DNA from: Candidatus Woesearchaeota archaeon
GTDB taxonomy: Archaea > Nanobdellota > Nanobdellia > Woesearchaeales > UBA9642
Direction: 5' to 3'
DNA length: 64,000 bases
NCBI GenBank assembly: GCA_003599145.1
Contig: QZIT01000006.1
Location: 186,001 to 250,000 of the forward strand
The notes below the pieces were generated by a model that saw only the letters and a list, made by a program, of their open reading frames with translations, was not told the DNA's origin and ran no database searches. The translations under genes were made by a program, and so were the position numbers. This document shows, piece by piece, positions 14,305 through 48,020 of this stretch (the stretch's first letter is position 1; every line of letters begins with the position of its first letter).

Positions 14305-14655
14305 TCATCTAAAACTTCTCTTGAACTCTTCTTTGGTTACAAATCCTTCAGGGTTCCATGCATCGACCCTTTCCTGCAAGGCAGCAAGCTCTTCTTTATT
14401 TGCAGCATACCTTATTTTTTGTATCAATCGATCTAATTCTATAGAACAATTCTTCATTTGTGCTGTTAAATTGTTAATAGTTTCCCTCGCCTTGTCAACA
14501 TGCTCTTTGAATTCATTGGTTTGAAACTCTCCTTCTTTTGATGTTGCCGTAAGAAAAGTTGTTATAAATGTGCTGTCTTTTTCCAAAGAGTTTATTCTTC
14601 CTGATAAAGTTACCAGATTTTCTCCTAATTGCTGAACCTGTTGGACGGTTTGCAT
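14305..14655 (-). CDS. Coiled-coil protein, 116 aa
   Basis: A small, almost entirely helical protein. Heptad-like spacing runs through VQQLGENLVTLSGRINSLE and through NKEELAALQERVDAW. No membrane segment or catalytic motif. The plus-strand sequence ttatttaaat at 14677-14686 reads as a TATA box on the minus strand about 26 nt upstream of the ATG. It is divergent from the HEAVH protein. The family is not recognised; it may be a structural or partner-binding protein. Confidence 0.6.
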   Translation of the reverse strand: MQTVQQVQQLGENLVTLSGRINSLEKDSTFITTFLTATSKEGEFQTNEFKEHVDKARETINNLTAQMKNCSIELDRLIQKIRYAANKEELAALQERVDAWNPEGFVTKEEFKRSFR

Positions 14656-14727
14656 GATCTTTTTGAATAAAAGGGTTATTTAAATGTTGTGGAAAACTTT
14701 AAATTTCGCAAACGCTTTCCTTTAGCG

Positions 14728-15159
14728 ATGTATTTTCCTCCTGTTACTTTAGATCAGCTTATTGCAGCTTTTGGAAGAGTTGACGAGGTGTATTTTTATA
14801 CGCAGTCTCATCGTTTAGGAGAGCTAAGAGTAGTGGATCACTGGACGAATCATCATGGAGCAAGATATATTATAGGTGTTCATCTGCGTCAATCAGTGAC
14901 TGATCAAATGCACTCTATGGCGCATGAAGCTGTTCACATTGCTACACAAATCATGTCTGCAGAACCTTATAAATTAGATCCTGTTCATCAGGCAATTGAC
15001 GATGAGGCAAAAAGACTATTGAAAGAGCAGAGAGCATACCTTGCTGAACAATACGAACGCTGGAGATATTTCCAATTTGGACTTAAGCCAGAGCAACAAG
15101 TATTGTTTTCGCCACAATTAGTTCTTCCGTATGGTGAATCTATTGCCGAAAACCTGTAA
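14728..15159 (+). CDS. Small protein with HEXXH motif, possible zincin, 143 aa
   Basis: A MAHEAVHIA segment near residue 73 supplies an HEXXH zinc-binding motif in a predicted helix, as in metallopeptidases. A third ligand is not obvious; candidates are the Glu/Asp residues in PVHQAIDDEAKR about 25 residues later. The frame is open up to a GTG at 14689, but ATG 14728 is preferred because ctttaaattt (14697-14706) sits about 27 nt upstream as a TATA box. No signal peptide, so cytosolic. The protein is shorter than most peptidases, so it could be a degenerate or non-peptidase member. Confidence 0.62.
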   Translation: MYFPPVTLDQLIAAFGRVDEVYFYTQSHRLGELRVVDHWTNHHGARYIIGVHLRQSVTDQMHSMAHEAVHIATQIMSAEPYKLDPVHQAIDDEAKRLLKEQRAYLAEQYERWRYFQFGLKPEQQVLFSPQLVLPYGESIAENL

Positions 15160-15188
15160 GAATATAAAATGATAAAGAAAGAAAAAAA

Positions 15189-15527
15189 TTATTTTCTTTT
15201 GCCGCCAAAGTAGAAAAACTTTTCTATGGAAACATCTGCTGGCGCAACGCCGTTTCTGTCAATAGGTTTATCTAAAGGAGGCCTGTCTTCTGTGTTGTAA
15301 TACGTGTTTTTTACAACTTGTTGTTGCTGTGGCTGGAATTGCTGTTGAGAGTACGATGCTTCTCGAGCAATTTCGGCATGCATTCCTTTTTTAACCTGTG
15401 AATGGACATTGGCAAGGTCGTTTTTTACTGTCTGCAATTCAGTTTGCAGTGCATTAATGTCTCCCTGCAGCTTTTTTGTTGCCAGTTCTATCATGACCTG
15501 AACTTTTTGCTGTATGAGTGCATCCAT
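15189..15527 (-). CDS. Coiled-coil protein with Gln-rich segment, 112 aa
   Basis: Residues 1-48 form a coiled coil (ALQTELQTVKNDLANVHSQV). A Gln-rich stretch (QQQFQPQQQQ) and a disordered Pro/Asp-rich region follow, with a short basic end (FFYFGGKRK). It lies 3 nt downstream of the helical-repeat gene on the same strand, so the two are one operon and the proteins may bind each other. The T-rich sequence after its stop probably ends the operon. The function is unknown. Confidence 0.62.
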   Translation of the reverse strand: MDALIQQKVQVMIELATKKLQGDINALQTELQTVKNDLANVHSQVKKGMHAEIAREASYSQQQFQPQQQQVVKNTYYNTEDRPPLDKPIDRNGVAPADVSIEKFFYFGGKRK

Positions 15528-15530
15528 TTT

Positions 15531-16301
15531 TTAACCTGCCTTTGGCAAAAAGTTCTCTCTTACGAAAGAAGCCATCATGTCATTGTGTGCCTGCTCATAC
15601 GCCTGATGTGCAAGTTGAAATAAGCCATCTTTAACACAGGAGTCTCCTAATGAATTGAATCCTTGAGCATCCTGGGCAAGTTCAAATGATTTGAATGCAT
15701 GGTCATATTCTTTCTCTTCAATGCATTGTGAGCCAACAAAGCTTAATTGCTCTTTGTTGTTGTTTGCTTTGAATATTTCAATGGCATACTCCCATTTTTG
15801 TTTCTTGACGCATTCATCAGCTACTCTGTTGAGGCCTTCTCCCTCTCCAATGTAGGTGTAAGCCTCAACTGCTTCTTTTAAATGGCCATTTTCAAGGCAA
15901 AAGTCTGCTACTTCTTTTAATTGTGCAGTGTTTCCTGCAAGTTTATAGCACTCAACTGCTTTGCTGTACTGTGCAGTTTCCTTGTAGTCATTGCCTATTT
16001 CGCAGAGCATGTCTCTATTTTCAGATAAAACAAAAACGTTGATTGCATTCTGCAAGTCTCCTTTTCTGAAGTATTCTTTTCCCAGAGTGTTTAAGATTTT
16101 GTTTCTTGTTTCTTCATTAAACATGTTTAAGTTTAATTTTTCAATGCCTTTTTCCATTAACATCGGAATGAGCTTTCCAAAGTCATTTCCTTTTTGTACG
16201 GCATTGGCTGCTTGGCGTTGTTCTTCTTCTCCAAAGAACTTTTCGTTCTTTTCAACAATTTTGTTTACTAGTTTCTTTATGACTACTTCGCGATCTGACA
16301 T
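15531..16301 (-). CDS. TPR-like helical-repeat protein, 256 aa
   Basis: About six helix-turn-helix repeats of 30-34 residues occupy residues 60-240, each with an A-V/I-E/K-x-Y/F core such as AVECYKLAG, AVEAYTYIG, AIEIFKANN and AFKSFELAQ. This is an alpha-solenoid of TPR or coatomer-like type for protein-protein contacts. The N-terminal 60 residues are charged and helical. No signal peptide. It is first in a two-gene operon with the coiled-coil protein, and a minus-strand TATA-like ttaatataat lies near 16327-16336. The client is unknown. Confidence 0.72.
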   Translation of the reverse strand: MSDREVVIKKLVNKIVEKNEKFFGEEEQRQAANAVQKGNDFGKLIPMLMEKGIEKLNLNMFNEETRNKILNTLGKEYFRKGDLQNAINVFVLSENRDMLCEIGNDYKETAQYSKAVECYKLAGNTAQLKEVADFCLENGHLKEAVEAYTYIGEGEGLNRVADECVKKQKWEYAIEIFKANNNKEQLSFVGSQCIEEKEYDHAFKSFELAQDAQGFNSLGDSCVKDGLFQLAHQAYEQAHNDMMASFVRENFLPKAG

Positions 16302-30854: not shown

Positions 30855-31437
30855 TGCCAGTAGGCAGACACATAGGCAAAATGACTTATTGGAAAACTTT
30901 GGAGATAAGTCTCATGTTTTAACTGATGAAGATAGAGCCAAGGGTAGAAGTGTCCAGTCTCCAAATAGATCGAGAGCCAATGCTATCAAAGCAATGAAAC
31001 ATGGCAAATACAGTGGACTTGTACCTCATTGTCATACTTGCTTATTCAGAAGCCAGTGTGGATCTTATGATCCTGCAGATCCAAAAGCTACATGCAAGAT
31101 AATCAACATTCCAAACCATCTGGAATTGATTAAAGCATTACATTTCAATTCAGAAGAAGATTTTGATGGATTCATCAACAGAATGGCACAGAGAATGCAT
31201 CTGAAAACATTGACTTCTCAAAACTACAATGAAATGAAAGATTTTGTGATGATGGTTTTAGCTGTGAAAAATGCAAAATTCAAAACTCCAAAAGAACAAA
31301 CTATCAACTTGCAAATAAACAATTTCTCGACAGAGTTTCAGATATTAAAAGATGTAACTATCAAAATTCTAAGTAAGCATCCTGAAGTGATGCAAGAATG
31401 GAGGGCCGCAATTGAATCTGCCAAACAGTCCAATTGA
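30841..31437 (+). CDS. Candidate small terminase subunit, 198 aa
   Basis: The gene lies directly before and overlaps the large terminase, the usual place for TerS. The protein has a basic N-terminal half with SRANAIKAMKHGK, then a four-Cys/one-His cluster CHTCLFRSQCGSYDP to TCK (near residues 64-85), possibly a zinc site, then helices that could form an oligomer. No standard TerS HTH is obvious. Context is the main argument; it could instead be a packaging regulator. Confidence 0.5.
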   Translation: MEQIDASRQTHRQNDLLENFGDKSHVLTDEDRAKGRSVQSPNRSRANAIKAMKHGKYSGLVPHCHTCLFRSQCGSYDPADPKATCKIINIPNHLELIKALHFNSEEDFDGFINRMAQRMHLKTLTSQNYNEMKDFVMMVLAVKNAKFKTPKEQTINLQINNFSTEFQILKDVTIKILSKHPEVMQEWRAAIESAKQSN

Positions 31438-32884
31438 GAAAGCGCTCTTTGATAGTTTCAAAGAGTCGAATTATCTGAACTTCATAGGGTTTGTTAAGAG
31501 ATACTTAGCTCCATTTATGGAACAGCATTTTGTGGAGGAAGATTACTATAAAGAATGGTTTGATCTTGAAGAAATCAATCAATACAATGCAATAGAAGCT
31601 CCAAGAGGACACAGTAAAAGCGAAATGTTTACAGTATGGGTTACAATATACTTTTCTGTTTATGATATCCACCATGAGCAAATAGTTTCCAGTGTAAGTG
31701 GAGATCAAACAAACGAATTATTTGACAGAATAAAATTCTTCTTTTATGTAAGCCCCTATCTAACTCAACAATTTAAACCAGAGGGAGCAGATAAGAATGT
31801 CAGTTTAAGCTCTTGGAATTCTAAAAAGATAGTTTTGAAGAATGATGCTATAGTTCATGCACGAAGTATTGCAGGAAAATGGAGAGGACTGCACGTTGAT
31901 AGAATCGTATGTGATGATATAATTACAGAAGACAGTACATTAAGTGATAAGCAAACTATCAACAAGTTTTATTCTGCAGTATTCAATTGCTCCACTGCAA
32001 AGAAAGGCAAGATCACAGTCATAGGAACTCCATTAAGATTCTCAGATATACTTTTTGATTTAAAATCAAATAAACAGTTTAATTTCAAAGCATATCCAGC
32101 AATACTTGACTTTGAAACAAAGAAAGTATTGTCTCCTAAGAGAAGATCTTTTGAAGAATTATTGAGGATAAAAGATACCATTGGATCTTTGCGATTTCAA
32201 TGTGAATATATGCTAAATCCAATTGATGACCAGAGTAGCATCTTCAAAAGAGAATGGTTGCTAAGAGCAAGAAGTGACTCTATCGACTTAATAAGAAACA
32301 GGCAGGACCTTAAAAGATATGGATTCAATGTTACTTTATTGACTTGTGGGGCTGACTTTGCTTTCTCTGAAAGAAAGAATGCTAACTATTCCGTATTTCT
32401 GACTCTTGCAAGACTTCACGATGGAAGATTTGTCCTGTGCAATTATTTTAGAGCACAAGGATTAACAGGACAACAACAAGTCGATAAATTAAGAGAACTC
32501 CATGCGATTTATGATTATGACATAATGGCCTTAGAAGAAAACAGCATCATGGCAATAAGTAAAGATCTTCAATCATTAGGTCTGCCGATCAAACTTCTAA
32601 GAACAGGATCAAGAGACACTGACAATTCTATCTCTAAAACAAACGCCATACTGAGAATGACGACATGGTTTGAAAACAATCAAATCATCATACCTTACGG
32701 AAGTGATGAAGCAAAAGAAAGATACGAGATTCTCGAGCAAGAATTCAGAAGCTTTGCACTGGAAGATGGCAAGATCATAGAGATAGGAGTGCATCCTGAC
32801 ATACCTATCGCTTTTGTTTATGCAGGAGAATCTGCAAAGAAAGTCAGTCAAGCTGCAGGATTTGTCACAAGCATTGTCAGGTAA
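31412..32884 (+). CDS. terL: Large terminase subunit (packaging ATPase-nuclease)
   Basis: A 490-aa protein. The ATPase domain has a Walker A-like APRGHSKS near residue 64 and a Walker B VDRIVCDDII near residue 165. The C-terminal RNase H-like nuclease has LLTCGADFAFSER near residue 308 and LEENS near residue 370 as metal-binding acidic residues. It cuts concatemeric DNA and pumps it into the procapsid. The start is TTG with GGAGG 7 nt upstream, inside the preceding gene. Length is normal. Confidence 0.9.
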   Translation: MNLPNSPIEKALFDSFKESNYLNFIGFVKRYLAPFMEQHFVEEDYYKEWFDLEEINQYNAIEAPRGHSKSEMFTVWVTIYFSVYDIHHEQIVSSVSGDQTNELFDRIKFFFYVSPYLTQQFKPEGADKNVSLSSWNSKKIVLKNDAIVHARSIAGKWRGLHVDRIVCDDIITEDSTLSDKQTINKFYSAVFNCSTAKKGKITVIGTPLRFSDILFDLKSNKQFNFKAYPAILDFETKKVLSPKRRSFEELLRIKDTIGSLRFQCEYMLNPIDDQSSIFKREWLLRARSDSIDLIRNRQDLKRYGFNVTLLTCGADFAFSERKNANYSVFLTLARLHDGRFVLCNYFRAQGLTGQQQVDKLRELHAIYDYDIMALEENSIMAISKDLQSLGLPIKLLRTGSRDTDNSISKTNAILRMTTWFENNQIIIPYGSDEAKERYEILEQEFRSFALEDGKIIEIGVHPDIPIAFVYAGESAKKVSQAAGFVTSIVR

Positions 32885-33245: not shown

Positions 33246-35288
33246 ATGAACATGGAGAATGAAAACAAAGCTTTGATGGTACTCTCCAAAGTAAATGAGG
33301 GAGTAAGGCAAACAGCCACGACAATTGATTACAGTAGTGTAAACTATTCAAAACTTGAGAATATATACAAAACAGATCAGCTTGTATTTCAAGCAATCAA
33401 TATCATAAGCACATTCGCAATATCCAAAGGATATGAATACGTTCTTTCTGAAAGCACTGATGAAAATATAGAGATGAAAGATAAGATTATAACACTTGAC
33501 AATTCTGTTGGACTTCCAAAACTATTGACGGATATTGTTAGACATCTGCACATTTATGGAAATGCTTATCTTGAGATTGTTTATTCAAGAACTGATAAAA
33601 AGAAAGTTGTAGGTCTTGCATTAATTGATCCAAAGACAATCGCTTTCAAGAAGAAAAGCACAGGAGAATTGGATCTTGACGAAAGTGGGGGTATCACAGG
33701 GTTTGTTCAGACGGTAAATGCGAAGAAAATAGATCTTACCCCAGAACAAGTAATTCATTTCAGGATAAATACGATTGCTGATTCTCTAACAGGCACGGGT
33801 GTAATTGAGCCATTAGCCAAAATTATAGAAGCTAAACGAAACATAGAGATAGGACTTGCAGAAGCAGTGTACCGTCATGGATTTCCACAATTTCATGTAA
33901 AGCTTGGAGATAGTGAACATCAACCAACAGGAGATCAAGTAACCGAAGAATCAGAGAAGTACAAGCGGATAAATTCTAAATCAGAATTCGTTACGCCCTA
34001 TTATTATGACATTAAAGTATTGGAAGCTCCAGGACTAAAAGGTGGAGAAAGTTATCTTAAATATTTCATAGACCAGATTGTTGCAGGGACAGGTGTTCCT
34101 CAAACAATTCTCTTAGGAAGCGGAGAATATAGCAATAGATCATCATCAGTTTCTCAGCAAGAAAACTTCTTTTTATACATCGCAGGAATTCAGAGTCTTG
34201 TTGCAGAAACGCTGCACAAAGAATTATTCACGAAAGTAATTGGACTTGACGAATGTCCTGTATTTATGATCTTTAATTCATTACAAACTAAGTCAGATCT
34301 TGAACTTGCACAAGAGCGAGAGATTTATCTGAAATATGGCGTTTTAACTCCTGATGAAGTCAGGCAGGATATGGGCTTAGAACCTATTTCTACACCCCCC
34401 AAGGATGAGCAACCCTTTCCTGATCAGTCAGGAGACTTTTTTTCTCAATTCCTAAATGATAAGGATTTGATGATAACTCCCGACACTGACTTTCATTTCA
34501 AAATAACAGAAGAACTTGATTTTGGAGGGGTACTCAAAGAATTATCACTTCCCATAAGGTCAAGATTCATCGCAGATCAGCAAATACTAACTCATAAGAT
34601 CAATAAAGTAATGGATAAGGCAAGATCTAAGATAATCAAAGAAATAGACTCCAACACTCAAGATGAGAATCAATCAATGGCAAGAGAAGATATTCTTATT
34701 GATTCTGAACTTCTAGGACCTGAAAGAGATGCACTTGTTGCTGCCATATTCATCGATTCTAAGAAGAAATTCAAACAAGGAATCAAACTGGGAGAGAATT
34801 TTATCAAGAAACAATATCCTCAAGTTGCAGGAATAAAAGTCAAAAGCACAATTAACGAACAAGCTATCAGAGCTCTTGATTTACGATCCAGTCAATTGGC
34901 CAATAAAGTGAACGAGGATCTTCTTAATGCCACGCAAATAGCAATACGTGATGGCATAATGGCCAGGAAAGGAGCAAGACAACTAAAAGAAGACATCGAG
35001 GCTATCTTTGAGAAATACGGTGGTGCTGCTGACAGATTTAACAGCATAGGAACAAGAGCAGAACTCATCGCAAGAACAGAATTACAGAGAGCATTTATTG
35101 AGGGTAATATTCAATCTTTCAAAGAACTTGGAGTTGCTAATTTGCAAATGTCAGTAAATCCTGATGCCTGTGAGCAATGCATTGAATTAGCATCTCAAAA
35201 TCAAAATACTTCTATTCATTTATCCGATGGAATTATTCCTGTTCATCCACGATGCAGATGTGGGTGGGTTGTTAATATGATGAAGTAA
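33246..35288 (+). CDS. Portal protein fused to MuF-like head-morphogenesis domain
   Basis: A 680-aa protein. Residues 1-390 fit an HK97/SPP1-type portal: an N-terminal strand region, AINIISTFAISKGYEY, TGVPQTILLGSGEYSNRSS, and a long helix. Residues 530-680 fit the MuF minor-head domain: ELIARTELQRAFIEGNIQSF and a Cys/His C-terminus (DACEQCIELAS to HPRCRCGW) typical of the family. The two are usually separate neighbouring genes; here they are one ORF. The portal ring is the DNA gate at one capsid vertex. The MuF part probably enters the procapsid or helps assembly. Confidence 0.85.
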   Translation: MNMENENKALMVLSKVNEGVRQTATTIDYSSVNYSKLENIYKTDQLVFQAINIISTFAISKGYEYVLSESTDENIEMKDKIITLDNSVGLPKLLTDIVRHLHIYGNAYLEIVYSRTDKKKVVGLALIDPKTIAFKKKSTGELDLDESGGITGFVQTVNAKKIDLTPEQVIHFRINTIADSLTGTGVIEPLAKIIEAKRNIEIGLAEAVYRHGFPQFHVKLGDSEHQPTGDQVTEESEKYKRINSKSEFVTPYYYDIKVLEAPGLKGGESYLKYFIDQIVAGTGVPQTILLGSGEYSNRSSSVSQQENFFLYIAGIQSLVAETLHKELFTKVIGLDECPVFMIFNSLQTKSDLELAQEREIYLKYGVLTPDEVRQDMGLEPISTPPKDEQPFPDQSGDFFSQFLNDKDLMITPDTDFHFKITEELDFGGVLKELSLPIRSRFIADQQILTHKINKVMDKARSKIIKEIDSNTQDENQSMAREDILIDSELLGPERDALVAAIFIDSKKKFKQGIKLGENFIKKQYPQVAGIKVKSTINEQAIRALDLRSSQLANKVNEDLLNATQIAIRDGIMARKGARQLKEDIEAIFEKYGGAADRFNSIGTRAELIARTELQRAFIEGNIQSFKELGVANLQMSVNPDACEQCIELASQNQNTSIHLSDGIIPVHPRCRCGWVVNMMK

Positions 35289-35362: not shown

Positions 35363-36421
35363 ATGAAACAAGTAATCGCTATCATATGTTTGATTCTTGT
35401 AGTTTTTATGGTTGGATGCTCGGCACCAACAGCACAAGATCAAAAGACAACTGAACAAACAACAAACACTGCTCCAACTCAAGAGACAAAAACTCAAGAT
35501 ACAGGGATTATTAACAAAGTCATCGACTCATTCTCATCAGATGCATCAAAACTTGAACGAGATTTCAAAGCAATGAATGATGAAAATCAAACTTTCTTCA
35601 CAAATGTTCAAATAAGTAAAGATGGTCAAGATATAAAAATGGACTTTACAGTGACACCTAATGCAACATCCAAAATGATCTTAAATATATTCACTCTCGG
35701 AATAAGCATAAAGACTTACAACGTAACACAAGGCTTTGAGAATCTAAAAATCAATTATTTAAATGACAAGAAACAGATTCTTGGTTCTATGACTATCCCT
35801 AAAAAAGCAATAAAAGACGTAGCTGATTACTCTGCAACAAATAAGGATGCAGACTTTATGGACAATCCTTATGTAGAAGCATTTTGGAAAATATCTCAAA
35901 GAATGTATGATGAATCCGTGCCAGAATTAATTCCTGCATCAATGGCTGAAGGAATGTTTGGTGGATTTGGGTCAGATGCAGATGACATTGCAGATGCATT
36001 AACTAAGACAGTAACCCATTTAGAAATTGATTGCAACTATGCAAAGAATTGGGATGCAGATGCTGACGATGATGGAATCACTTACTCGGTTAAACCATTA
36101 GCTGCAGACGGCACAGTAGTTCCTATTGAAGGATCTTTTGATACCAAAGTGTATGAGAAAGTACAAACTGACAATTGGGATTATGTAAAAGGAAAACTAT
36201 TATACACCCAAAATGGCGATTTAAAAGGTCAAGACAGATTACAATATTTTGATACATGGGATGGATATAGTATTCAACTTGCATGGGATGATGTCGAACC
36301 ATTCATGGCTTCAAGTAGTAATTATGGAATTATGTATGTTACATATACTGACTTAAATGGCAAATCATTTGAAGCTAAAACTGGGGAAGACTCATTTGGC
36401 GGATGCCAATTAAGAGAATAA
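35363..36421 (+). CDS. Lipoprotein, probable moron gene, 352 aa
   Basis: The signal peptide with a lipobox (VFMVGCSAP, Cys at residue 19) indicates a lipid-anchored outer-face protein. A Thr/Gln-rich linker (20-50) precedes a domain of about 300 residues with mixed strands. No known family. It sits between the portal and protease genes, where virion genes are otherwise contiguous, and has its own promoter and a poly-T terminator. That layout is typical of a moron expressed from the integrated virus, for example for superinfection exclusion or host surface alteration; the function is inference. Confidence 0.7.
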   Translation: MKQVIAIICLILVVFMVGCSAPTAQDQKTTEQTTNTAPTQETKTQDTGIINKVIDSFSSDASKLERDFKAMNDENQTFFTNVQISKDGQDIKMDFTVTPNATSKMILNIFTLGISIKTYNVTQGFENLKINYLNDKKQILGSMTIPKKAIKDVADYSATNKDADFMDNPYVEAFWKISQRMYDESVPELIPASMAEGMFGGFGSDADDIADALTKTVTHLEIDCNYAKNWDADADDDGITYSVKPLAADGTVVPIEGSFDTKVYEKVQTDNWDYVKGKLLYTQNGDLKGQDRLQYFDTWDGYSIQLAWDDVEPFMASSSNYGIMYVTYTDLNGKSFEAKTGEDSFGGCQLRE

Positions 36422-36496: not shown

Positions 36497-37117
36497 ATGG
36501 CTGAATTAGTTATCAAGGAAATTTACGAGTTCATCAACTCAGTAGAAACGAAAAAGGAAGATTCTAAGGAGATGATAGAGAACTTTCTCGCAAACAACAG
36601 CGTAACTCCTAAAATCAAATCACTTTCACGACAGCTTGAACACATACATCTTTCTGAATTTAAGATCCATCAAGTCCTTGCAGAAGGCTCAAACCTGAGG
36701 ATATCGGGAATTGCAATAAGTGAAGGCACATGGAATGGCATATTCTATCCCGCAGAAGAACTTGAAAAAGCATATATTGGTCTTGGAAACAAACCTTTGA
36801 GAATAGATCACTCAACCAGCACGAGAGACATCGTTGGAAAAGTAATCAAATCCACATGGATAGTTCCAAAAAAATGGATAGAATTTGAAGCAATTGTAAC
36901 CGATGGGGATATAATTCAGAAACTTCTGAACAATCTCATCGAATCTGTGAGTGTTGGTGTGTTGATAGATAATGTCGAGGAGAATGGAGTCCAAATAGCT
37001 CGCAATCTCGAATTTAAAGAATTAAGTCTTGTTGATGATCCTGCATGCAAAGATGCAAGAATCAACCCGATAGAAAATGGAGGCAATGATCAAAATGGCG
37101 GAAGTCAAAGAAATTGA
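36497..37117 (+). CDS. HK97-type prohead protease
   Basis: A 206-aa protein in the position of the capsid maturation protease. The herpes/HK97 protease fold is indicated by LRIDHSTSTRDIVGKV near residue 99 (catalytic His), LIESVSVGVLI near residue 146 (catalytic Ser) and the conserved ELSLVDDPAC strand near residue 177. It trims scaffold and capsid proteins during maturation. Its C-terminus overlaps the scaffold gene. The first 50 residues are extra and helical. Confidence 0.82.
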   Translation: MAELVIKEIYEFINSVETKKEDSKEMIENFLANNSVTPKIKSLSRQLEHIHLSEFKIHQVLAEGSNLRISGIAISEGTWNGIFYPAEELEKAYIGLGNKPLRIDHSTSTRDIVGKVIKSTWIVPKKWIEFEAIVTDGDIIQKLLNNLIESVSVGVLIDNVEENGVQIARNLEFKELSLVDDPACKDARINPIENGGNDQNGGSQRN

Positions 37118-37556
37118 ACAGGCTAAAACCCTATTGAAGAAAGCCGCTGAAGAGCTTGCAGCAAAAGAACAAGATATTGCAATGCTAAATCAGGAAATAT
37201 CTTCAAAGGACAAACTTATCTCGGAACTGACAGCAAAACACGAGAAGTTGATGAAAGATTTTGAAACAGTAACAACTGAACTCAAGCAGATAAAACAAGC
37301 TGCAAGAGACATCGCATTGAAAGAAATAATCGATGCTGAAGAAAAGCTTGGAGTGCTTGAAACAAACAAAGAGCAAAGACTCAATGAACTGAGAGCACTT
37401 GACGACAAGGGCGGATTTGAAGCATATGCAAAGCAGACAAAAAGAATGCTTGATCTACACAAAAGCATAGGCGACAGAAAGTCCCTGATCAACAATTCAA
37501 ACCAGGCAACTGACAAGCGAAAAGAAATTGCATCGGTACTGGGAATGGAGAACTAA
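37095..37556 (+). CDS. Scaffold protein, coiled coil
   Basis: About 153 aa, almost fully coiled coil (LLKKAAEELAAKEQDIAMLN, then long heptads), with a disordered end. It lies between protease and capsid genes, the standard place for scaffold. Three in-frame ATGs (37077, 37086, 37095) are possible; MAEVKEIEQ at 37095 is chosen with reserve because GGAGG at 37079-37083 is slightly distant. It guides capsid assembly and is then degraded. Confidence 0.72.
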   Translation: MAEVKEIEQAKTLLKKAAEELAAKEQDIAMLNQEISSKDKLISELTAKHEKLMKDFETVTTELKQIKQAARDIALKEIIDAEEKLGVLETNKEQRLNELRALDDKGGFEAYAKQTKRMLDLHKSIGDRKSLINNSNQATDKRKEIASVLGMEN

Positions 37557-37569
37557 GAGGTGAATCAAA

Positions 37570-37944
37570 ATGACATATGATATCATGATTGACGACGGAA
37601 AGAATCCAAGCATGCTCGTTGCAACAGGAAACCTTACCAAAGGACAGCTTGTTGGACTAACAGTCCAGCCAGCATCTGCACAAGCAGACATACTTGGAGT
37701 CAGCCTAAAAGACACTCCACAAGGAAACCCTGCATCAATTGGATGCATCGGAACATTCTATGTGGATGTATCAGTCGCAGCTTCAGCAACCCTGAATGTC
37801 GGGGATGAACTTGAAGTCAAAGACAACGCAACACTGCAAGCAAAAAACACAGGAGTCGCAGTGGCCAAAGCATACGAGAAGATAGACAACTCGACTGGCG
37901 GTAGCCCAGTGACAAGGAAGATTCCTGTAAAAATCGTGAAATAA
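37570..37944 (+). CDS. Head decoration protein, 124 aa
   Basis: A beta-rich protein similar in pattern to DUF2190-type capsid cement proteins: ATGNLTKGQLVGLT, GVSLKDTPQGNPASIG, a strand series, and DELEVKDNATLQA. It immediately precedes the major capsid gene, with AGAGGTGA before the ATG. It should bind capsid three-fold points and stabilise the shell. Length is normal. Confidence 0.72.
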   Translation: MTYDIMIDDGKNPSMLVATGNLTKGQLVGLTVQPASAQADILGVSLKDTPQGNPASIGCIGTFYVDVSVAASATLNVGDELEVKDNATLQAKNTGVAVAKAYEKIDNSTGGSPVTRKIPVKIVK

Positions 37945-37960
37945 GAGGAGGAGAGGCAAA

Positions 37961-38767
37961 ATGAAAACAATGCAAGAACTATTTTCGAGCCAAGACGCTG
38001 CACCTCTCATCAAGGAAGTCATCGACTCCAACGTGTTTAAGGTTGCAGGCAGAGAAAGAGTAGGAAGAAAGATCGTGAAACTCATAACCTTGAGTGAAGG
38101 ATCTGCACTGAAAATCCCTAAGATGGGAGCAGGACAAGCATATGTGATTCCAGAACTGGGAGCAATCCCTATGGATGTCAGCACTTTCAACGAAGTTGTT
38201 GTAACACCATATAAGATCGGAAAAGCGTTTGCTATTCCAAAAGAAGCCATCGAAGATTCTGCCTTTGATGTTGTCAGATTGAAAGCTGACATGGCTGCAG
38301 AAGATGTGGCAAGAAAAGAAGATGAGGAAATCTTCCGAGTATTGATGAACACATCGAATACAGTCTCGCCAAAGACTGCGGGACAATTTGTTCAGGAAGA
38401 CGTTGTCACCCTGAGAAATGGAGTAAATAGGCACAGCTACAAAGCAGCATGGCTTGTTGCACATCCTGATGACTTGGCAAAGCTTGAAAAAGATCTTATC
38501 AGTAAGGGCTATAAGGCATTTGACAGGCTTGATGAGACAGGAATCATAGGAAATGTTGCTGGACTTCAAGTAGTTGAAACCACTGCAGTAGAACCAGGCA
38601 CAATTCTTGCTTTAGACAGCAGAGCTTGTGTATTGGTTGAAAGAAGACCTCTCTCAACAGAGAACTTCACAGATCCATTGCGAGATCTTGCTGCTGGAGT
38701 AACAATTACTGAAAGAGTAGCACCTGCAGTACTTGATGACAATGCAGTCTCAAAGATGACCTTGTAA
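37961..38767 (+). CDS. Major capsid protein, HK97 fold
   Basis: A 268-aa protein. The sequence runs as an HK97-type shell protein: a P-domain-like segment KIPKMGAGQAYVIPELGAIP, a spine-helix region (FDVVRLKADMAAEDVARKEDEEIF), and the A-domain with WLVAHPDDLAKLEKDL and ALDSRACVLVERRP. It follows decoration and protease genes and has a GGAGGAG ribosome-binding site. The next gene is a clear paralogue. Confidence 0.85.
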   Translation: MKTMQELFSSQDAAPLIKEVIDSNVFKVAGRERVGRKIVKLITLSEGSALKIPKMGAGQAYVIPELGAIPMDVSTFNEVVVTPYKIGKAFAIPKEAIEDSAFDVVRLKADMAAEDVARKEDEEIFRVLMNTSNTVSPKTAGQFVQEDVVTLRNGVNRHSYKAAWLVAHPDDLAKLEKDLISKGYKAFDRLDETGIIGNVAGLQVVETTAVEPGTILALDSRACVLVERRPLSTENFTDPLRDLAAGVTITERVAPAVLDDNAVSKMTL

Positions 38768-38780
38768 AATAGGTCATCAT

Positions 38781-38793
38781 ATTATTTTTTTAT
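38781..38793 (+). terminator. Weak internal terminator between the two capsid genes
   Basis: A seven-T run within attatttttttat lies between the two capsid paralogues. It may lower transcription of the second gene; inference. Confidence 0.35.
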
Positions 38794-38805
38794 AGGTGAC
38801 TCTAC

Positions 38806-39543
38806 ATGGATCTAACTACTGTCAAGTCTAAGGTACTGCTTGAAGCAGGGAAGTTTCGTATAGGTCCACGAGTTTTAAGACTGCAACAACAAAAGGATGG
38901 CTCTGCAGTAAAGATAAGTAAGATCAAAAATGTGAACGGTGCAATTGTACCTATTTTAGGTACAGCTCCAATATCTCTTTTTGATGTCGAGTCAGTTGTT
39001 GTGTTCCCTCTGACCATTAAAGCAACAATTCTATTTTCTGAGGAATGTTTTGAAGACAATGACTTAAATGAAATGCTTCAAAAGTCAATCAAGGAAAGTT
39101 TTATTCTTGCAGAAATAGAGAATAAAATAGTTGTTGAAACATTGATTGCAGGAGCAGGAAAAAAGATAACTGCTGAAACAAAACAAGATGTAAGAGAAAA
39201 GCCAATACTTGACAATTTTATTTCTGCAATAAAATTTATTGAAGACAATAAGTACCATCCTGATGCAATTCTTATTAATCCGCAAATTGCAGAAACATTA
39301 AGACAAAGAGATGAACTAAAAGAGAAACTCTTAGCTTATGCTATTGAAGTCATTATCGATACTTCTGTGCCTGAAAATATTGTCATAATTCTTGACTCTG
39401 CAAATGCTGGACTGATTATTGAAAGAGTCTCTCTTGAGATAAGTGATTACTCTGATCCTTGGCAAAGCAAGAAAGGATTCTTACTGCGAGAGAGAGTTGC
39501 ACCTGTTGTTCTGAATGGAAACGCTGTGGCGGTGATAGAATAA
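38806..39543 (+). CDS. Second HK97-type capsid paralogue
   Basis: A 245-aa protein that aligns along its length with the preceding capsid protein: KDGSAVKISKIK to ILGTAPISLFDVESVVVFPL, then the helix region, and an end LLRERVAPVVLNGNAVAV against ITERVAPAVLDDNAVSKM. It is slightly shorter, mainly in the spine-helix region. It could form pentons or a minor shell component, or be a variant under host-range selection. It is separated from the first gene by a poly-T run, and its stop overlaps the next start. Confidence 0.78.
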   Translation: MDLTTVKSKVLLEAGKFRIGPRVLRLQQQKDGSAVKISKIKNVNGAIVPILGTAPISLFDVESVVVFPLTIKATILFSEECFEDNDLNEMLQKSIKESFILAEIENKIVVETLIAGAGKKITAETKQDVREKPILDNFISAIKFIEDNKYHPDAILINPQIAETLRQRDELKEKLLAYAIEVIIDTSVPENIVIILDSANAGLIIERVSLEISDYSDPWQSKKGFLLRERVAPVVLNGNAVAVIE

Positions 39544-40205
39544 TGGGAATCGACACAGAATATCTTGAACAATTGAAAGGATTGATTTCTGAATTAAGAG
39601 ACTTACTTAGTGCCATCGAAGTAGAATCAGACGGAAGCATTAATGCAAACATCAATGGCACAGTAGATGTTGACACTATCTCAATAAAAGATCCGCTAAA
39701 TGATTATCGTGCCAAAGTAGATGCTGATGGAAAATTACACATAAAAAACGATCTTATTCAGTATGAATCTCTTATTATTAGAGATGCATCAAATCCATTG
39801 CTAAAAGCTTCTGTAGACGGCTCTGGAAGGCTGCTTGTCGCAACTCCTCCTGCCACGCCTCCACCTCTAACAACCCCCGTGATAATCACAGCCTTCGGAA
39901 CAGTCTCAGGAAATGTTGATTCTGCATATACAATAACTAATGGAAAAAGTCTTGTGATAGGCAGGCTTCTTGCAGGAAGTCAGGAAGCAAACAGTGCATG
40001 CAGAGTAACACTTTATGACAATCCCTCAGGTGATGGAGTTACACTCATATTAATTGCCACACTTTACGTCAATGGAAACTCTGACAAGTTTGACCTATCA
40101 GAAAAGATAACTGGGAATGGAACTCACAAGATAATTCTGCGAAGAACAAATCTTGGTGGAGGAAGCAAAGAAGTCTTTGGAAGATTTGAAGGGTATGAGG
40201 AATAA
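39543..40205 (+). CDS. Viral structural protein with C-terminal beta domain, 220 aa
   Basis: Residues 1-35 are helical, followed by a short beta segment (SDGSINANINGTVDVDT), a Pro-rich hinge (ATPPATPPPLTTP) and a beta-sandwich-like C-terminal half of about 100 residues. The start at 39543 overlaps the capsid stop (TAATG); the upstream open frame is a shadow of the capsid gene. The jointed layout resembles capsid fibres or head-decoration proteins. The family is not recognised. Confidence 0.6.
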   Translation: MGIDTEYLEQLKGLISELRDLLSAIEVESDGSINANINGTVDVDTISIKDPLNDYRAKVDADGKLHIKNDLIQYESLIIRDASNPLLKASVDGSGRLLVATPPATPPPLTTPVIITAFGTVSGNVDSAYTITNGKSLVIGRLLAGSQEANSACRVTLYDNPSGDGVTLILIATLYVNGNSDKFDLSEKITGNGTHKIILRRTNLGGGSKEVFGRFEGYEE

Positions 40206-40835: not shown

Positions 40836-41315
40836 ATGACAAACGAATACACAACATCAGAACTTGTAAAGTCAAGAGTTGGAAGTGTTAATCTTCCCTC
40901 TGACATTTTAGATAGTGATATCCAGCAATGGATTAGGGAATCAAGCAACTTTATAGACTTATCTGCACGAAGAATAGGACAAGGATTCCAGGCAACAGAA
41001 TACATCTATCCGACAGTCCAACAAATAGCAACAGACCTATCAGCAATTAAACTATTGCTAAGAATGAGTGGACCTGGAAAAGCAACAACAGCAGGCATCT
41101 CATACAGAATAGGAGAGTTCTCAGTAGATAAGAAGAACATAGACTCCTCAGCTATTGATGAAATAGAAATCTTCGAGAATCATGCAAAAGAAAGCCTTGC
41201 AGCATTAAAGAATTACTTAGGCGTTGATGCAGGTGGATTTGTAGGTGGCTCTGTAGTAAAAGGGTGTCCAGCTCCCACAACCAACTATGGTGGAAACTCT
41301 CCACAACAACCTTGA
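40836..41315 (+). CDS. Head-tail connector (gp6-like), 159 aa
   Basis: A helical protein with the neck-adaptor pattern: YTTSELVKSRVG, LDSDIQQWIRESSNFIDLSARR, then IYPTVQQIATDLSAIKLLL, and a flexible Gly/Pro-rich end. Position after the capsid genes and before the tail-completion proteins supports a ring of the connector that closes the portal. No decisive motif. Confidence 0.6.
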   Translation: MTNEYTTSELVKSRVGSVNLPSDILDSDIQQWIRESSNFIDLSARRIGQGFQATEYIYPTVQQIATDLSAIKLLLRMSGPGKATTAGISYRIGEFSVDKKNIDSSAIDEIEIFENHAKESLAALKNYLGVDAGGFVGGSVVKGCPAPTTNYGGNSPQQP

Positions 41316-41319
41316 GACA

Positions 41320-41688
41320 ATGGAAATCGAATCAGAAGACTTTGACAAGATCGTAGATTATGACATCGGAGTAGATGTAACTCTAATCAGAAAAAGCCAG
41401 ACCATAGACTCAGACTACGGAAGCCTTGTTTCAAACTCTTTTCAGGAATATATAATAAAAGCTGTATGGCAAGAAATTACAGGAAATGAAGAAAGTTTTA
41501 GGCCAGAGGGAGAATTCAAGATTGGAGACATCAAATGCTACACTAAAAATGCATATGGATCAATAATTCCAACAGCAGAAACAGATACAATCAAGAAAGA
41601 CAATAAAGAATACAAAATTGTCAAATCAACAGTGAAAACAGTAGGGGAAAACGTGATTTATCGTCTTCTTCAACTAAGGCTGAAATAA
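41320..41688 (+). CDS. Head-closure protein candidate, 122 aa
   Basis: A beta-rich protein (VDVTLIRKSQTIDSDYGS, FKIGDIKCYTKNAYG). ATG 41320 is preferred over 41287 because the latter lies inside the previous gene. Order adaptor, head closure, tail completion is the usual one, which is the main support. Confidence 0.5.
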   Translation: MEIESEDFDKIVDYDIGVDVTLIRKSQTIDSDYGSLVSNSFQEYIIKAVWQEITGNEESFRPEGEFKIGDIKCYTKNAYGSIIPTAETDTIKKDNKEYKIVKSTVKTVGENVIYRLLQLRLK

Positions 41689-41717: not shown

Positions 41718-42080
41718 ATGGTAAAGATCACAGTAATCAGTCCTGATCTTGCACGATTAGGAAAGAAAATGAGTGATCTCAAAGATGATGGTTTCAAAAA
41801 AGAAGTTCATGAAAGCATCAGAAAAGTACTCCCTGTAATACACAGGGATGCATACGAGAACTGTCCAAAAGACACAGGAATACTATCAGCGTCACTCAAT
41901 GTTGGTTTTGAAGATGAAACAACAGGATACATTGCTGACGGAGTGTTTTATGGTGTATTCCAAGAAGAAGGGACAAGATTTATCGAGCCAAAACATTTCA
42001 TGAGAAATGCAGTGAACAAGAATTTTCCAAGAGTGGAAAATGAAGTCACAGCATCAATCAAGAAGAAATTCAATCAGTAA
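41718..42080 (+). CDS. HK97 gp10-like tail-completion protein
   Basis: A 120-aa protein with the hallmark pattern of gp10-like proteins: AYENCPKDTGILSASLNVGF, then VFYGVFQEEGTRFIEPKHFMRNAV, where the GT-x(4)-P-x-F-M-x-A motif is diagnostic. It caps the tail tube at the head side. It has its own TATA box and overlaps the next gene by frame. Confidence 0.82.
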   Translation: MVKITVISPDLARLGKKMSDLKDDGFKKEVHESIRKVLPVIHRDAYENCPKDTGILSASLNVGFEDETTGYIADGVFYGVFQEEGTRFIEPKHFMRNAVNKNFPRVENEVTASIKKKFNQ

Positions 42081-43910: not shown

Positions 43911-46900
43911 ATGTCAATGGTTGAATCAGTCAGAATTACTTTCAAGGGCGAAGACAATGTCAGTCCTGCACTGACAAGAATACATTCAGGAATAAATAGT
44001 CTTAGCTCCGGCGTTGATTCTGTTGGCAAAACATTCTCTGATTTCAATAAGAAACTTCTCATAGGATTTACAGCAATAGCAACAGCAGTCACAGCTATTG
44101 GAATAAAAGCAGTCAAGAGTTTTGGAGAATTCGACAAACAAATAAGACGAGTCCAGGTGCTTGCTGGAGGCACTGAAGAAGACTTCAAAAAACTTGCTGA
44201 TACAGCTTTCAAGCTTGGATCAAGTACTGCTTTCTCTGCACAAGAAGTTGCACAAGCATTTGAAGAATTTGCAAAGGCAGGATTTAATGTAAACCAGATT
44301 TTAAGAGCATCAGAATCTACTCTTGGACTTGCAACTGCAGGAAATGTTTCATTGGCAGAAGCAGTCAGCATCTCAGTTGCAGCAATGAATTCATTCCAGC
44401 GAGATGCAGAGGATATGAATGGTGTTGCAACAGTTCTCACGACTACATTCACCAACTCAGCCCAAAGCTTGCAAGATCTTGGAGAAGCATTAAAGATTGT
44501 CGGACCTCTTGCATCAAGTCTTGGAATAAGCCTTGAAGAAGTAAGTGCTGCTCTTGGAACACTTGCAAATGTAGGTATTAAAGGAAGTCTTGCAGGAACA
44601 TCATTAAACCAGGCATTATTACAGCTACTTAGCCCGACTGATGATTCTGCAGAAGCAATGGAGAATCTTGGAGTAAACTTCTTTACATTAAATGAAGCTG
44701 GCCAAGCAGCAAAAGCAACAATCCAAGCAACAAGAGATGAATTCAGCTCATTAAAAGACAAAGTCAGACAGAGTGATATAGAACTTGCACTACTTGGATC
44801 AAAACTTGCAGAAGCCAAAAGACAAATGAAATCATTTGGTGATGAAGCAAAAGCTCCTGATAAATTATCAAGTTCACTTAGTGGATTGCAGTCAGCTTTT
44901 GATGAATCAAGACTAAAAAATACTGAATTAAGAGAATCACTTGAAGCGCAAGAAAAGACGCTTCAAGATCTAAGAAAGCAAGTTACTGAGGGACAGCAGG
45001 AATTTGTTGGATTAAGAGATGCAACTAAACAACTCAATGATGCATTCCAAGAAATAGATGCATCAACAGTTCAGAAAGCCACAACTCTTGTCAAAATCTT
45101 TGAAGTAAGAGGAGCAAGAGCATTTCTGACACTTACAAAAGAACTCGATAACTTCAATGAAATATTCAAAACAATCGCATCAACAGAGATAAGAACTGAA
45201 CTTCTTGACGAATCGAGTCTTAAAGCTGCACTTAGCGCTCAGGATAGCTTCTCACGACAGTTCGGAATTACATTTGAGAAATTAACTCAGAATGCGACAA
45301 AAGTACCCGAAGGCATTGATGAAGCATTAAAGAATTCAAAACTTGACGAGAGAGCAAGAGATATATTTAGAAATATGAGAAGTGAAGTCAATGCATTAAA
45401 GCTTGACAGCGAATCAATAGAAGCTGTTCTTTCTGATTTCCTACCTCTTGATTCCGTCAAAGATTTCAGAGAGATCATACAATTAACAGATGCTGACTTT
45501 GAAAATTTTCTATTAAGCATCAATGCCTTAAATCAAGATGCACAAACCCTGAACAAAACACTTCTTCAAAATCTTGGAAGTGCATTTGAAGAATTACAAG
45601 ATACTGTAACAACTGCATTTATCAGAATAGGTGGAGCAATAGCCCAAAGACTCAATTTATCAAGCATAGTAAAGAATATTCAGCAAGCAGTAGAAGACTT
45701 CTCAACAGGAGATGGAATAGAAAAACTTGCTGATAAAATAGTAAATGTCATAAGGCTCATTCAGTCTTTCTTGAAAGGAGTCGGAGAAGGATTCAAACAA
45801 GTATTCACACCAGACATTCTTGACAGATTAAAATCAGCATTTGGCACTGCTTTCTCATCTATGCAAAGCAATGCAGAAGGCTTTGGAAATGTGGTTGGTA
45901 GAGTTCTTGGAAGTGTGGTAAAAGGTGGAGCAGAACTCATCACCAGAGTCCTTAATAGCAATCTTATTGAGAATGCAAGCAATATGTTTTCTCGTCTTGG
46001 AAATGTTCTTGAAAAAATAGGACCTACTGTTGGTGCTGTTGCAGCTGGATTTGTATTATTAACTCCGATTCTTACACCAATAATCTATGTCGTAAGCAAG
46101 ATTTTCAGTGGATTTGGATTACTCATCAATATCTTGTTATCTTCTGGAAAAGCTATTGGTGCTCTTGCTGGAGGAACAGCAAAACTCACCACTGGACTTG
46201 CTGGAATAACTGCAAAAGTCACAGGAGTAGGAAGTGCAGCTACAACAGCGACAGCTACAACAGGAGGATTTCTTGCAAAACTTGGAACAATTGGATCAAG
46301 CATTGGAAGCATATTCACTGCAATAGGCAGTGCTCTCGGAGTAAGTGCAGGAGTAGCTGCTGCTATTGTTGTGGCCATAATAGGAACAATCATCGGGTTC
46401 GTAAATCAAGTGAGACAAAACTTCTTAGGACTCGGAGATGATTTCAGGACAATATTTGGATTCATCGGAGGAGTTCTTACAGCAATAGGTGCAGGAATCA
46501 AAGAAAGTCTTATAGATATAGGAACTCTCATTAAACCAATTTGGGAAGGCATCAAAGAAACTTTCAATGGACTCGGTAAAATACTCGCAAGTCTTGTCGC
46601 AGTTGTTGTCAAACCATTTGCAAATAGCATAAGAGATGCAGGAGATCAGGGGTTCAACACATTTGAAATAATCAAGAATGCAGTATCTTTCCTATTTACT
46701 CCTCTAAAACTTGTCTTGACAATAGTTGGAAGTGTACTCAAAGCTATTGGAGCAATACTCAACTTTGTAGGAGATCTCATTGGAGGAATTGTTGAATTTG
46801 GTTTTATTGTTGCAGATGCTTTCAAGAGATTTAAGGATGAAGGATTCTCCGCATTTAATGAAGTTGGAGAAGCAGCTAAAAGAATCGGAGTGTCTATTCT

Positions 46901-48020
46901 GACATCATTTGTCAGTGCAATAGACTCAATCATAAACATATTTATCGACTTAATCAATGAACTTATCAAAGTAGTAAAGAAGATTCCTCTTCTGAATAAA
47001 GCTATTGGAGAAGATTTCAAGTTAGACAAGAATGTACTCGGAAACCTGACTGGATTCACAAAAGATGCACAAAAAACAACTGTATCTCAAACCAATGTCC
47101 AACAAAAATCCGTATCCGTCACATCGTATGCAAAAGCAAGTTCTTCAGCACTTGCTCAAGAGAGTGCATCCGTAACAAAAAGTGCTGTTCAACCATTCAA
47201 GCAGGCCACGATAGATGTATCTGATTTAGGAATTCAGGCAGCATCGAATTTTACGATGCCTTTCAAAGATCCTGTAACATCTGCACAATCAAAAGCAGAT
47301 GTCCTCTCAGTATTCCCAACAAATGCACAAGCATCTCAGATGGGAAGAAACTTTGGAGCTGCATTCTTCACAGGATTATCAGATGGAATGAAAGCCACTG
47401 CTGCAGTATTTGACTCGAGCATCAAGCCAATCTTTGCGAGTATGATTTCCTCGCTTAAAGAATTCATTGCAGTATTTATCAGAGATTTGTATGTCTTGAG
47501 AATAGTTCCTGCATTCATGCAGAATCTCGTCTTGAAAATTCATACTGCTTTTGTTTCAGGATGGCATCACATGTTTCTTGCAGTGATTGATGTTACTGAA
47601 AAAGCAATGAATGGAATCCTGACAAATCTGGGAAAGTTTTACAATCAACTTGTAAGTGTCGTCAATAAGTTAATTGCAGAATATAATAGAGCAGCAGATA
47701 TATTGTCAAGAGATATTACAAGGACAACATACAAAACTGTAACTGACAAAAAAGGCAATACTAAAAGAGTTGCTCAAACTGAGACTTTATTCAAAGGAGT
47801 CAATGTTCAGAGATTGAATCAGTTTTCTCCAGTGCAATTAACTCCTCTAAAACTTGAAAGGCCAGCACTTCCACAAGCACCAAGTGTTGCTGTAGATGCA
47901 GGAGGATTTAGCGTAAACATACAGAACTTCAATGCAGGATCTGAATCTGACAAACAGAAGTTATTCTCTGAAATTGATGCATACATAGCAAGACAACTCG
48001 GACAACTGGTGAGAATATGA
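43911..48020 (+). CDS. Tape measure protein, 1369 aa
   Basis: The largest viral gene. Residues 1-140 contain an N-terminal tape-measure segment (VRITFKGEDNVSPALTRIHSG). Long coiled coils follow (about 260-370), then hydrophobic stretches (about 700-860, ALGVSAGVAAAIVVAIIG type and GAGIKESLIDIGTLIK) and a C-terminal soluble region to 1369. This pattern, and position after the chaperone, is the mark of a tape measure. At about 0.15 nm per residue the tail would be near 200 nm. It should also line the tube and enter the host membrane. Confidence 0.88.
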   Translation: MSMVESVRITFKGEDNVSPALTRIHSGINSLSSGVDSVGKTFSDFNKKLLIGFTAIATAVTAIGIKAVKSFGEFDKQIRRVQVLAGGTEEDFKKLADTAFKLGSSTAFSAQEVAQAFEEFAKAGFNVNQILRASESTLGLATAGNVSLAEAVSISVAAMNSFQRDAEDMNGVATVLTTTFTNSAQSLQDLGEALKIVGPLASSLGISLEEVSAALGTLANVGIKGSLAGTSLNQALLQLLSPTDDSAEAMENLGVNFFTLNEAGQAAKATIQATRDEFSSLKDKVRQSDIELALLGSKLAEAKRQMKSFGDEAKAPDKLSSSLSGLQSAFDESRLKNTELRESLEAQEKTLQDLRKQVTEGQQEFVGLRDATKQLNDAFQEIDASTVQKATTLVKIFEVRGARAFLTLTKELDNFNEIFKTIASTEIRTELLDESSLKAALSAQDSFSRQFGITFEKLTQNATKVPEGIDEALKNSKLDERARDIFRNMRSEVNALKLDSESIEAVLSDFLPLDSVKDFREIIQLTDADFENFLLSINALNQDAQTLNKTLLQNLGSAFEELQDTVTTAFIRIGGAIAQRLNLSSIVKNIQQAVEDFSTGDGIEKLADKIVNVIRLIQSFLKGVGEGFKQVFTPDILDRLKSAFGTAFSSMQSNAEGFGNVVGRVLGSVVKGGAELITRVLNSNLIENASNMFSRLGNVLEKIGPTVGAVAAGFVLLTPILTPIIYVVSKIFSGFGLLINILLSSGKAIGALAGGTAKLTTGLAGITAKVTGVGSAATTATATTGGFLAKLGTIGSSIGSIFTAIGSALGVSAGVAAAIVVAIIGTIIGFVNQVRQNFLGLGDDFRTIFGFIGGVLTAIGAGIKESLIDIGTLIKPIWEGIKETFNGLGKILASLVAVVVKPFANSIRDAGDQGFNTFEIIKNAVSFLFTPLKLVLTIVGSVLKAIGAILNFVGDLIGGIVEFGFIVADAFKRFKDEGFSAFNEVGEAAKRIGVSILTSFVSAIDSIINIFIDLINELIKVVKKIPLLNKAIGEDFKLDKNVLGNLTGFTKDAQKTTVSQTNVQQKSVSVTSYAKASSSALAQESASVTKSAVQPFKQATIDVSDLGIQAASNFTMPFKDPVTSAQSKADVLSVFPTNAQASQMGRNFGAAFFTGLSDGMKATAAVFDSSIKPIFASMISSLKEFIAVFIRDLYVLRIVPAFMQNLVLKIHTAFVSGWHHMFLAVIDVTEKAMNGILTNLGKFYNQLVSVVNKLIAEYNRAADILSRDITRTTYKTVTDKKGNTKRVAQTETLFKGVNVQRLNQFSPVQLTPLKLERPALPQAPSVAVDAGGFSVNIQNFNAGSESDKQKLFSEIDAYIARQLGQLVRI

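Follow-up and report, generated by a model that had tools for sequence, protein, structure and literature searches.

Here, we report that a head-tailed provirus in a Woesearchaeota (DPANN) genome encodes two HK97-type shell paralogues in tandem, and we suggest, with a little more confidence than an even call would carry, that the second of the two is a dedicated penton (vertex) protein. The genes, referred to as A and B, lie in the 64,000-nucleotide stretch of DNA analyzed here (the window), which is part of contig C2 of a genome of 1.31 Mb (Table 1). The presence of two such paralogues in one head-tailed virus is well supported. The original prediction of tandem HK97-type capsid paralogues was borne out: both ORFs are open, at exactly the coordinates first given; BLASTP aligns A and B with 65 of 250 identities (26%; 69.7 bits; E = 1e-18); and profile-profile comparison gives a probability of 98.8% (E = 9e-17). 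The motifs quoted as marking the shared ends are present in both proteins, namely ERVAPAVLDDNAV in A and ERVAPVVLNGNAV in B as an end motif, and GSALKI in A and GSAVKI in B; however, the latter pair sits in the E-loop region and not at an end. Because B starts in a different frame, 845 bases past the start of A, there is no A-B read-through fusion.

Table 1. Features of the provirus in and around the head gene cluster (coordinates are those of the window)
Feature	Coordinates	Strand	Remarks
Terminase large subunit (TerL)	31412..32884	+	phrog_38, 1.8e-43
Portal with Mu-F-like C-terminal part	33246..35288	+	PF04860, 3.5e-15; PF06074, 4.2e-14; PF04233, 0.0014 (below cut-off)
Probable prohead protease	36497..37117	+	phrog_80, head maturation protease, 0.023 (weak)
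Probable scaffold, coiled-coil-like	37077..37556	+	from position before the capsid gene and sequence by eye
Cement-like protein	37570..37944	+	PF09956 (Phage_cement_2), 5e-7; phrog_673, head scaffolding, 2.9e-8
GAGGAGGAG before A	37945-37953		ribosome-binding-site-like; longer than the AGGTGA of B
Gene A	37961..38767	+	268 aa; HK97-type major capsid protein, probable hexon protein
Hairpin, 8 bp	38755..38778	+	spans the A stop codon (38765-38767)
T7 run	38785..38791	+	possible weak terminator in the 38-nt A-B gap
AGGTGA before B	38794..38799	+	ribosome-binding-site-like, read from sequence
Gene B	38806..39543	+	245 aa; diverged HK97-fold paralogue, probable penton protein
Gene after B	39543..40205	+	start overlaps the B stop by one base
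Head-tail connector 1	41287-41688	+	phrog_161, 5.4e-4
Head-tail connector 2	41718-42080	+	phrog_5, 1.8e-15
Tape measure protein (long tail)	43911..48020	+	1369 aa; phrog_1533, 2.9e-70

The provirus occupies the window from ~24.5 kb on and is siphovirus-like, with a long-tail gene set. In the protease candidate, H, S, and E are found where a prohead protease would have them and are conserved in six of six aligned homologues; neither the candidate nor two of its homologues has a Pfam match above the cut-off. The scaffold candidate has no convincing family match in Pfam or PHROGs, and the gene after B matches no known family. No exact flanking direct repeat of at least 16 bases was found between 22.5-25.5 and 53.5-64 kb. 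Toward the end of the window, 59348-61489 matches PbeA (6e-236), of a DNA phosphorothioation type of system, and 61660-63639 matches PbeC (3.9e-173) and is also DndD-like. Because PbeA, PbeC, and Dnd genes are reported for the two Woesearchaeales proviruses of a previous study (PMC11705971), the right end of the provirus may lie beyond the window. The Woesearchaeales provirus QMQO01000002_pro from that study very probably belongs to the same virus group, because the locus L030 on its contig encodes an A and a B that are 89% and 71% identical to those of the window, and because of the PbeA and PbeC matches in the window. Passages of that paper refer to an HK97-like capsid protein and mention no second capsid gene, and the word "paralog" is absent from its main text (PMC11705971). 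Among titles and abstract beginnings, in which subscription journals were thinly covered, we found no report of archaeal tailed viruses that have two capsid proteins.

Between the portal and protease genes, the window has a 352-aa lipoprotein-like gene (35363-36421). At the same position, a relative of the window's virus in G155 has a diversity-generating retroelement (L048:12955-16260, contig C16), and this slot is perhaps a site of variable cargo. The retroelement has a reverse transcriptase gene (14584-16260, +), a template (13044-12955, -), and a variable repeat (13501-13411, -) inside an ORF (14171-13242, -); all 13 substitutions fall on adenines of the template, and there is one additional single-base indel. 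The reverse transcriptase has no match among window ORFs of at least 60 aa. G213 (L041:6974-12752; C6:85095-88961) has kept TerL and the portal gene, which lie at C6:85-89 kb, as well as an ORF that resembles a reverse transcriptase and the head genes up to and including A and B; ORFs lacking window homologues are found between the portal and reverse transcriptase genes. In the slice of G213 examined, which does not reach TerL and the portal gene, there is no window homologue past that of 40209, and of TerL, the portal, and the tail gene, only the tail gene was not found in the G213 genome.

As a major capsid protein of the HK97 type, A is unremarkable. It matches Phage_capsid in Pfam (PF05065; 3.1e-21) and the major head protein family PHROG 10 (phrog_10; 7.2e-23); its nearest solved relative in a profile search is gp27 of phage G (6wkk; 1.7e-7), and the A4 profile has the capsid protein of HFTV1 as its top PDB match (2.8e-17). 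For B, Pfam gives no match to a capsid family at E ≤ 1, and its PHROG matches, phrog_1650 (0.0037) and phrog_2522 (0.0097), are both partial. A profile of eight B sequences matches 33 of 35 related loci with a single capsid gene (best, 4.2e-9; weakest, 0.0015), and the same 33 were matched in a search that allowed E up to 1. Based on an AF2 model from a 37-protein alignment of B, A, and single-capsid proteins (pLDDT 83.3; pTM 0.82), B is predicted to have a complete HK97 fold with E-loop, spine helix, and A domain. A model from the seven B rows alone failed (pLDDT 35.6), and the predicted fold, therefore, rests partly on A and the other capsid homologues in the larger alignment; the sequence match between A and B does not depend on the model. 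Structural matches of the model (Foldseek, VIA) cover residues 1-245. The best match is the Pyrococcus furiosus particle (2e0z; Z 19.9; 3.1 Å over 224 residues); encapsulins (Z up to 19.8) and HK97 gp5 (8cfa; Z 17.2) align with most of the chain, and HFTV1 matches with Z 16.5. In a viral structure library, the named matches are mainly capsid proteins.

B lacks residues that are otherwise conserved. In an alignment of 37 rows (7 B, 5 A, 24 single-capsid, and 1 outgroup), the 14 columns at A residues 184-197 have none filled in all seven B rows and 13-14 filled in 5/5 A, 24/24 single-capsid, and 1/1 outgroup rows. These columns are contained in A residues 175-202, the best conserved of six A regions measured (0.964). 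In the B model, residues 179-180 are all that connects the last A-domain helix to the strand that follows it. The exact position of the missing residues varies with the aligner, and BLASTP and two other alignments place the loss otherwise, as ~12 residues over two gaps. B is also short at its N terminus: the N-terminal block comprises 4 residues in B, 19 in A, and 19-27 in 22 of the 24 single-capsid rows, the other two (L083 and L084) being short because these sequences were cut at the start of the tblastn match. In SPP1, the A-loop of the hexon subunits (residues 194-207) turns outward and closes the hexon center, while the penton A-loops do not (PMC6813328). By position and sequence pattern, rather than by superposition, we tentatively take A 184-197 as the equivalent of this loop; hhalign weakly places the region opposite the HK97 gp5 residues just before MWGLPVV (probability 2%; E = 0.022). 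The part that B has lost, thus, looks like a hexon element, and the loss of such an element from a protein that keeps the shell fold is as expected of a corner specialist.

A was found in 12 records, i.e., the window, five IMG/VR contigs, G089 (QMQO01000002.1), G155, G139 (JAIPET010000001.1), G213 (JAUYKZ010000002.1), JAIPIH010000012.1, and G269; B is directly downstream in all 12 and intact in 11. Some of these records are near or exact copies of one another: both proteins of IMG/VR contig 7351_000576 are 100% identical to those of the window, L011 and G089 are identical in their A+B DNA, and JAIPIH010000012.1 (L031) has the same A+B as JAIPET010000001.1 (L032). The L031 contig is binned as Cloacimonadota; because its A+B DNA is the same as that of L032, a Woesearchaeota contig, it is probably misbinned. 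Among 193 genomes searched, including that of the window, B was present in four and A in six, two of the six being weak matches to other capsid proteins. Additional viral scans with the L022 and L012 proteins gave no contigs beyond those already found, and a search of 50,697 phage records for B gave nothing at E 0.1. None of four profiles detected a second capsid match in the 35 single-capsid loci, 25 of which have at least 1 kb on either side of the capsid gene. Two neighboring ORFs of ~530 aa in G061 (L045) are not paralogues (E = 0.52).

A and B are both under purifying selection. In comparisons with the window copy, in which dS is above 1 for the distant pairs, dN/dS is 0.03-0.10 for A (7/8 comparisons computable) and 0.09-0.24 for B (7/7), down to 60% protein identity; B, thus, evolves faster than A. 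An inactivated copy, which the original prediction had named as evidence against it, was found only in G269 (L042:1680-2773, contig C66), in which B is cut after ~114 residues. The G269 contig starts inside the scaffold gene and has the cement gene, A, and part of B, and the TerL, portal, and tail gene of the window have no match anywhere in the G269 genome; for these reasons, the locus is probably a provirus remnant. By eye, the ORF after the cut B resembles the C-terminal region of a tyrosine recombinase, with no Pfam match, and is followed by genes that look host-like.

In the tree, A and B are sisters (support 91/75). Constrained trees that placed A with the single-capsid rows had a p-AU of 0.075, and those that placed B with them had a p-AU of 0.297. 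Because the support is not decisive and because of these p-AU values, a duplication of the capsid gene inside this virus group is favored but not established.

The 8-bp stem over the A stop codon is followed, after six bases, by the T7 run, and this arrangement fits the pattern of an intrinsic terminator. Archaeal polymerase stops at T-runs. The folding z-score for 38730-38830 is -2.28, and the probability of a T run of at least seven in such a gap is ~0.004 in a dinucleotide model of the intergenic DNA of the provirus. The T7 run is present in seven of nine distinct A-B junctions but in only two of the four lineages into which we grouped them. The seven junctions with both a stem over the A stop and a T7 run are five of the window's clade plus L022/L023, in which the T-run follows at most one base after the stem; L012 has the stem and no T-run, and neither element is clear in L011. 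In the HK97 record, a putative terminator is annotated directly behind the only capsid gene, and elements of this kind are, therefore, not confined to viruses with two capsid proteins. We consider the terminator-like element to be real; it may simply end most capsid transcripts. The weak terminator suggested in the original prediction is, thus, present as a hairpin and a T7 run, but its proposed function in setting the A:B ratio is weakly supported, given the two of four lineages and the HK97 annotation.

The ribosome-binding-site-like motifs differ in length in part of the records: the site of B is shorter than that of A in the window's clade and in L012. L011 and L022/L023 have a GGAGG site before B that is as good as that of A. 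Because of these GGAGG sites and the two of four lineages without the T-run, the junctions hold no general signal for lower expression of B. As hints of a low copy number of B relative to A, the gap, the T-run, and the ribosome sites are indirect and mixed. Codon usage gave no sign of lower B expression either, with effective codon numbers of 43.1 (A) and 42.4 (B) and codon adaptation values of 0.639 (A) and 0.661 (B), the latter relative to 15 window ORFs taken as host, some of which are possibly viral. RNA pairing of the B ribosome site was considered and dropped, as the folds differ between junctions.

We suggest that B would have arisen through a duplication of the major capsid protein of this same virus, acquisition from a related virus being less likely. 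A would make the hexons, and we infer that B would form the pentamers at the eleven portal-free corners. B is predicted to keep the E-loop, spine helix, and A domain that form the HK97 core and could, therefore, sit in the same lattice as A; what it has lost, compared with A, is a segment of the N-terminal arm and the stretch of the A-domain tip that would close the hexon hole. A lower output of B than of A could result from the shorter Shine-Dalgarno-like site before B in the window's clade and, for some lineages, from partial termination where the hairpin and T-run follow A. A dedicated penton protein is not a necessity, because pentons made by the one capsid protein are usual (PMC13185644, PMC12494034). 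In the archaeal tailed virus HFTV1, pentamers and hexamers alike consist of a single protein, gp19 (PMC12494034); HFTV1, thus, shares the HK97 fold with A and B but differs in having one capsid protein for both capsomers.

The original prediction held two shell proteins in a head-tailed virus to be uncommon, which agrees with a 2026 review that gives T4 as the phage example of pentons and hexons built from different proteins (PMC13185644). The T4 vertex protein gp24 is thought to be derived from gp23 by duplication, and its propeptide is shorter, with 10 residues removed compared with 65 in gp23 (PMC9958956). Like A and B, gp23 and gp24 are HK97-fold paralogues of similar divergence (28% identity over 278 columns; E = 3e-16 by BLASTP) encoded close together behind a protease and a scaffold, and the T4 gene order 21, 22, 23, 24, with segD between 23 and 24, resembles protease, scaffold, (cement), A, B. 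Also, as in B, the second protein has a gap in the A-domain region: gp24 lacks 12 residues (gp23 405-416) before the LGGKYRVYID strand, partly offset by 6 extra residues ~20 positions earlier, for a net loss of ~7 compared with gp23. A comparison by hhalign of the A5 profile (A and single-capsid rows) with gp23 and gp24 gave no usable match. Unlike the T4 proteins, A and B are smaller and belong to an archaeal virus with a long-tail gene set, and the penton role of B is a proposed one. A second parallel is Ccm of SaPIbov5, which is found only in pentamers, the hexamers being made of the 24%-identical capsid protein of the helper phage phi12, and in which the N-arm is placed differently than in the helper protein (PMC8569155). 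Ccm, thus, resembles B as a diverged capsid homologue with a differing N-arm; however, its gene lies on a parasite island and the protein redirects capsid size, whereas B lies in the virus's own operon in 12/12 records.

Several other functions of B can be envisioned. B could be a second lattice protein that is mixed with A in hexons or occupies set positions, e.g., around the portal, and tunes size or stability. The full predicted fold, including the E-loop and A domain, the constant co-encoding with A, and the good ribosome site in some lineages would all suit such a function; however, B lacks the residues that would line or close the hexon center, and the two SaPIbov5 homologues segregate by capsomer (PMC8569155), and we regard this explanation as rather unlikely. 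We consider it unlikely that B is a determinant of size or shape, or the remnant of a satellite's redirecting protein similar to Ccm, incorporated under some conditions only. Ccm does redirect assembly through pentamers as a 24%-identical capsid homologue (PMC8569155), and the faster evolution of B is what might be seen in an arms-race protein, but each of the 12 records has B directly after A within the head operon of the virus itself; as to a satellite, this assessment covers the genes neighboring B.

The encapsulins and the P. furiosus particle as closest solved folds, together with the short N terminus, could indicate that B is not a shell protein at all but an assembly chaperone, an inner core protein, or a capsid-derived encapsulin-like compartment. 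This appears improbable, with a slightly smaller chance than that of a size determinant, as the sequence of B is closest to A, its gene sits between capsid and connector genes, and no encapsulin cargo gene was recognized among the scanned neighbors of B using Pfam and PHROGs. In Pfam, B has no match at E ≤ 1 to the encapsulin family Linocin_M18 and none to Phage_capsid either, and A scores 20.5 bits against Linocin_M18, under the cut-off of 24.3. Finally, B could be a decaying duplicate without a role, for which its faster evolution and the cut copy in G269 might be cited. We consider this very improbable because B is intact in 11 of 12 records with the low dN/dS given above, and G269 is probably a provirus remnant. 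Altogether, a dedicated penton protein is the best explanation for B.

A provirus on the contig of a relative has been described before (PMC11705971). T4-like division of labor between shell proteins is rarely seen, and in most head-tailed viruses, one flexible protein serves for hexons and pentons alike. We speculate, tentatively and with more doubt than attaches to the penton function of B itself, that dedicated penton proteins evolved more than once, each time by tandem duplication of the capsid gene and subsequent trimming of the A-loop and arm from one copy, and that this Woesearchaeota virus group represents an independent archaeal case. If so, a second lineage with a permanent split of roles would indicate that the T4 arrangement is more than a peculiarity of large heads, and a lost A-loop would serve as a sequence signature by which corner proteins of other uncultured head-tailed viruses might be predicted. 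A, B, and their single-capsid relatives would, moreover, provide a paired comparison of the parts of the HK97 fold needed for five-fold versus six-fold rings, and the pair would be a structural feature of the viruses of DPANN archaea, a little-known group.
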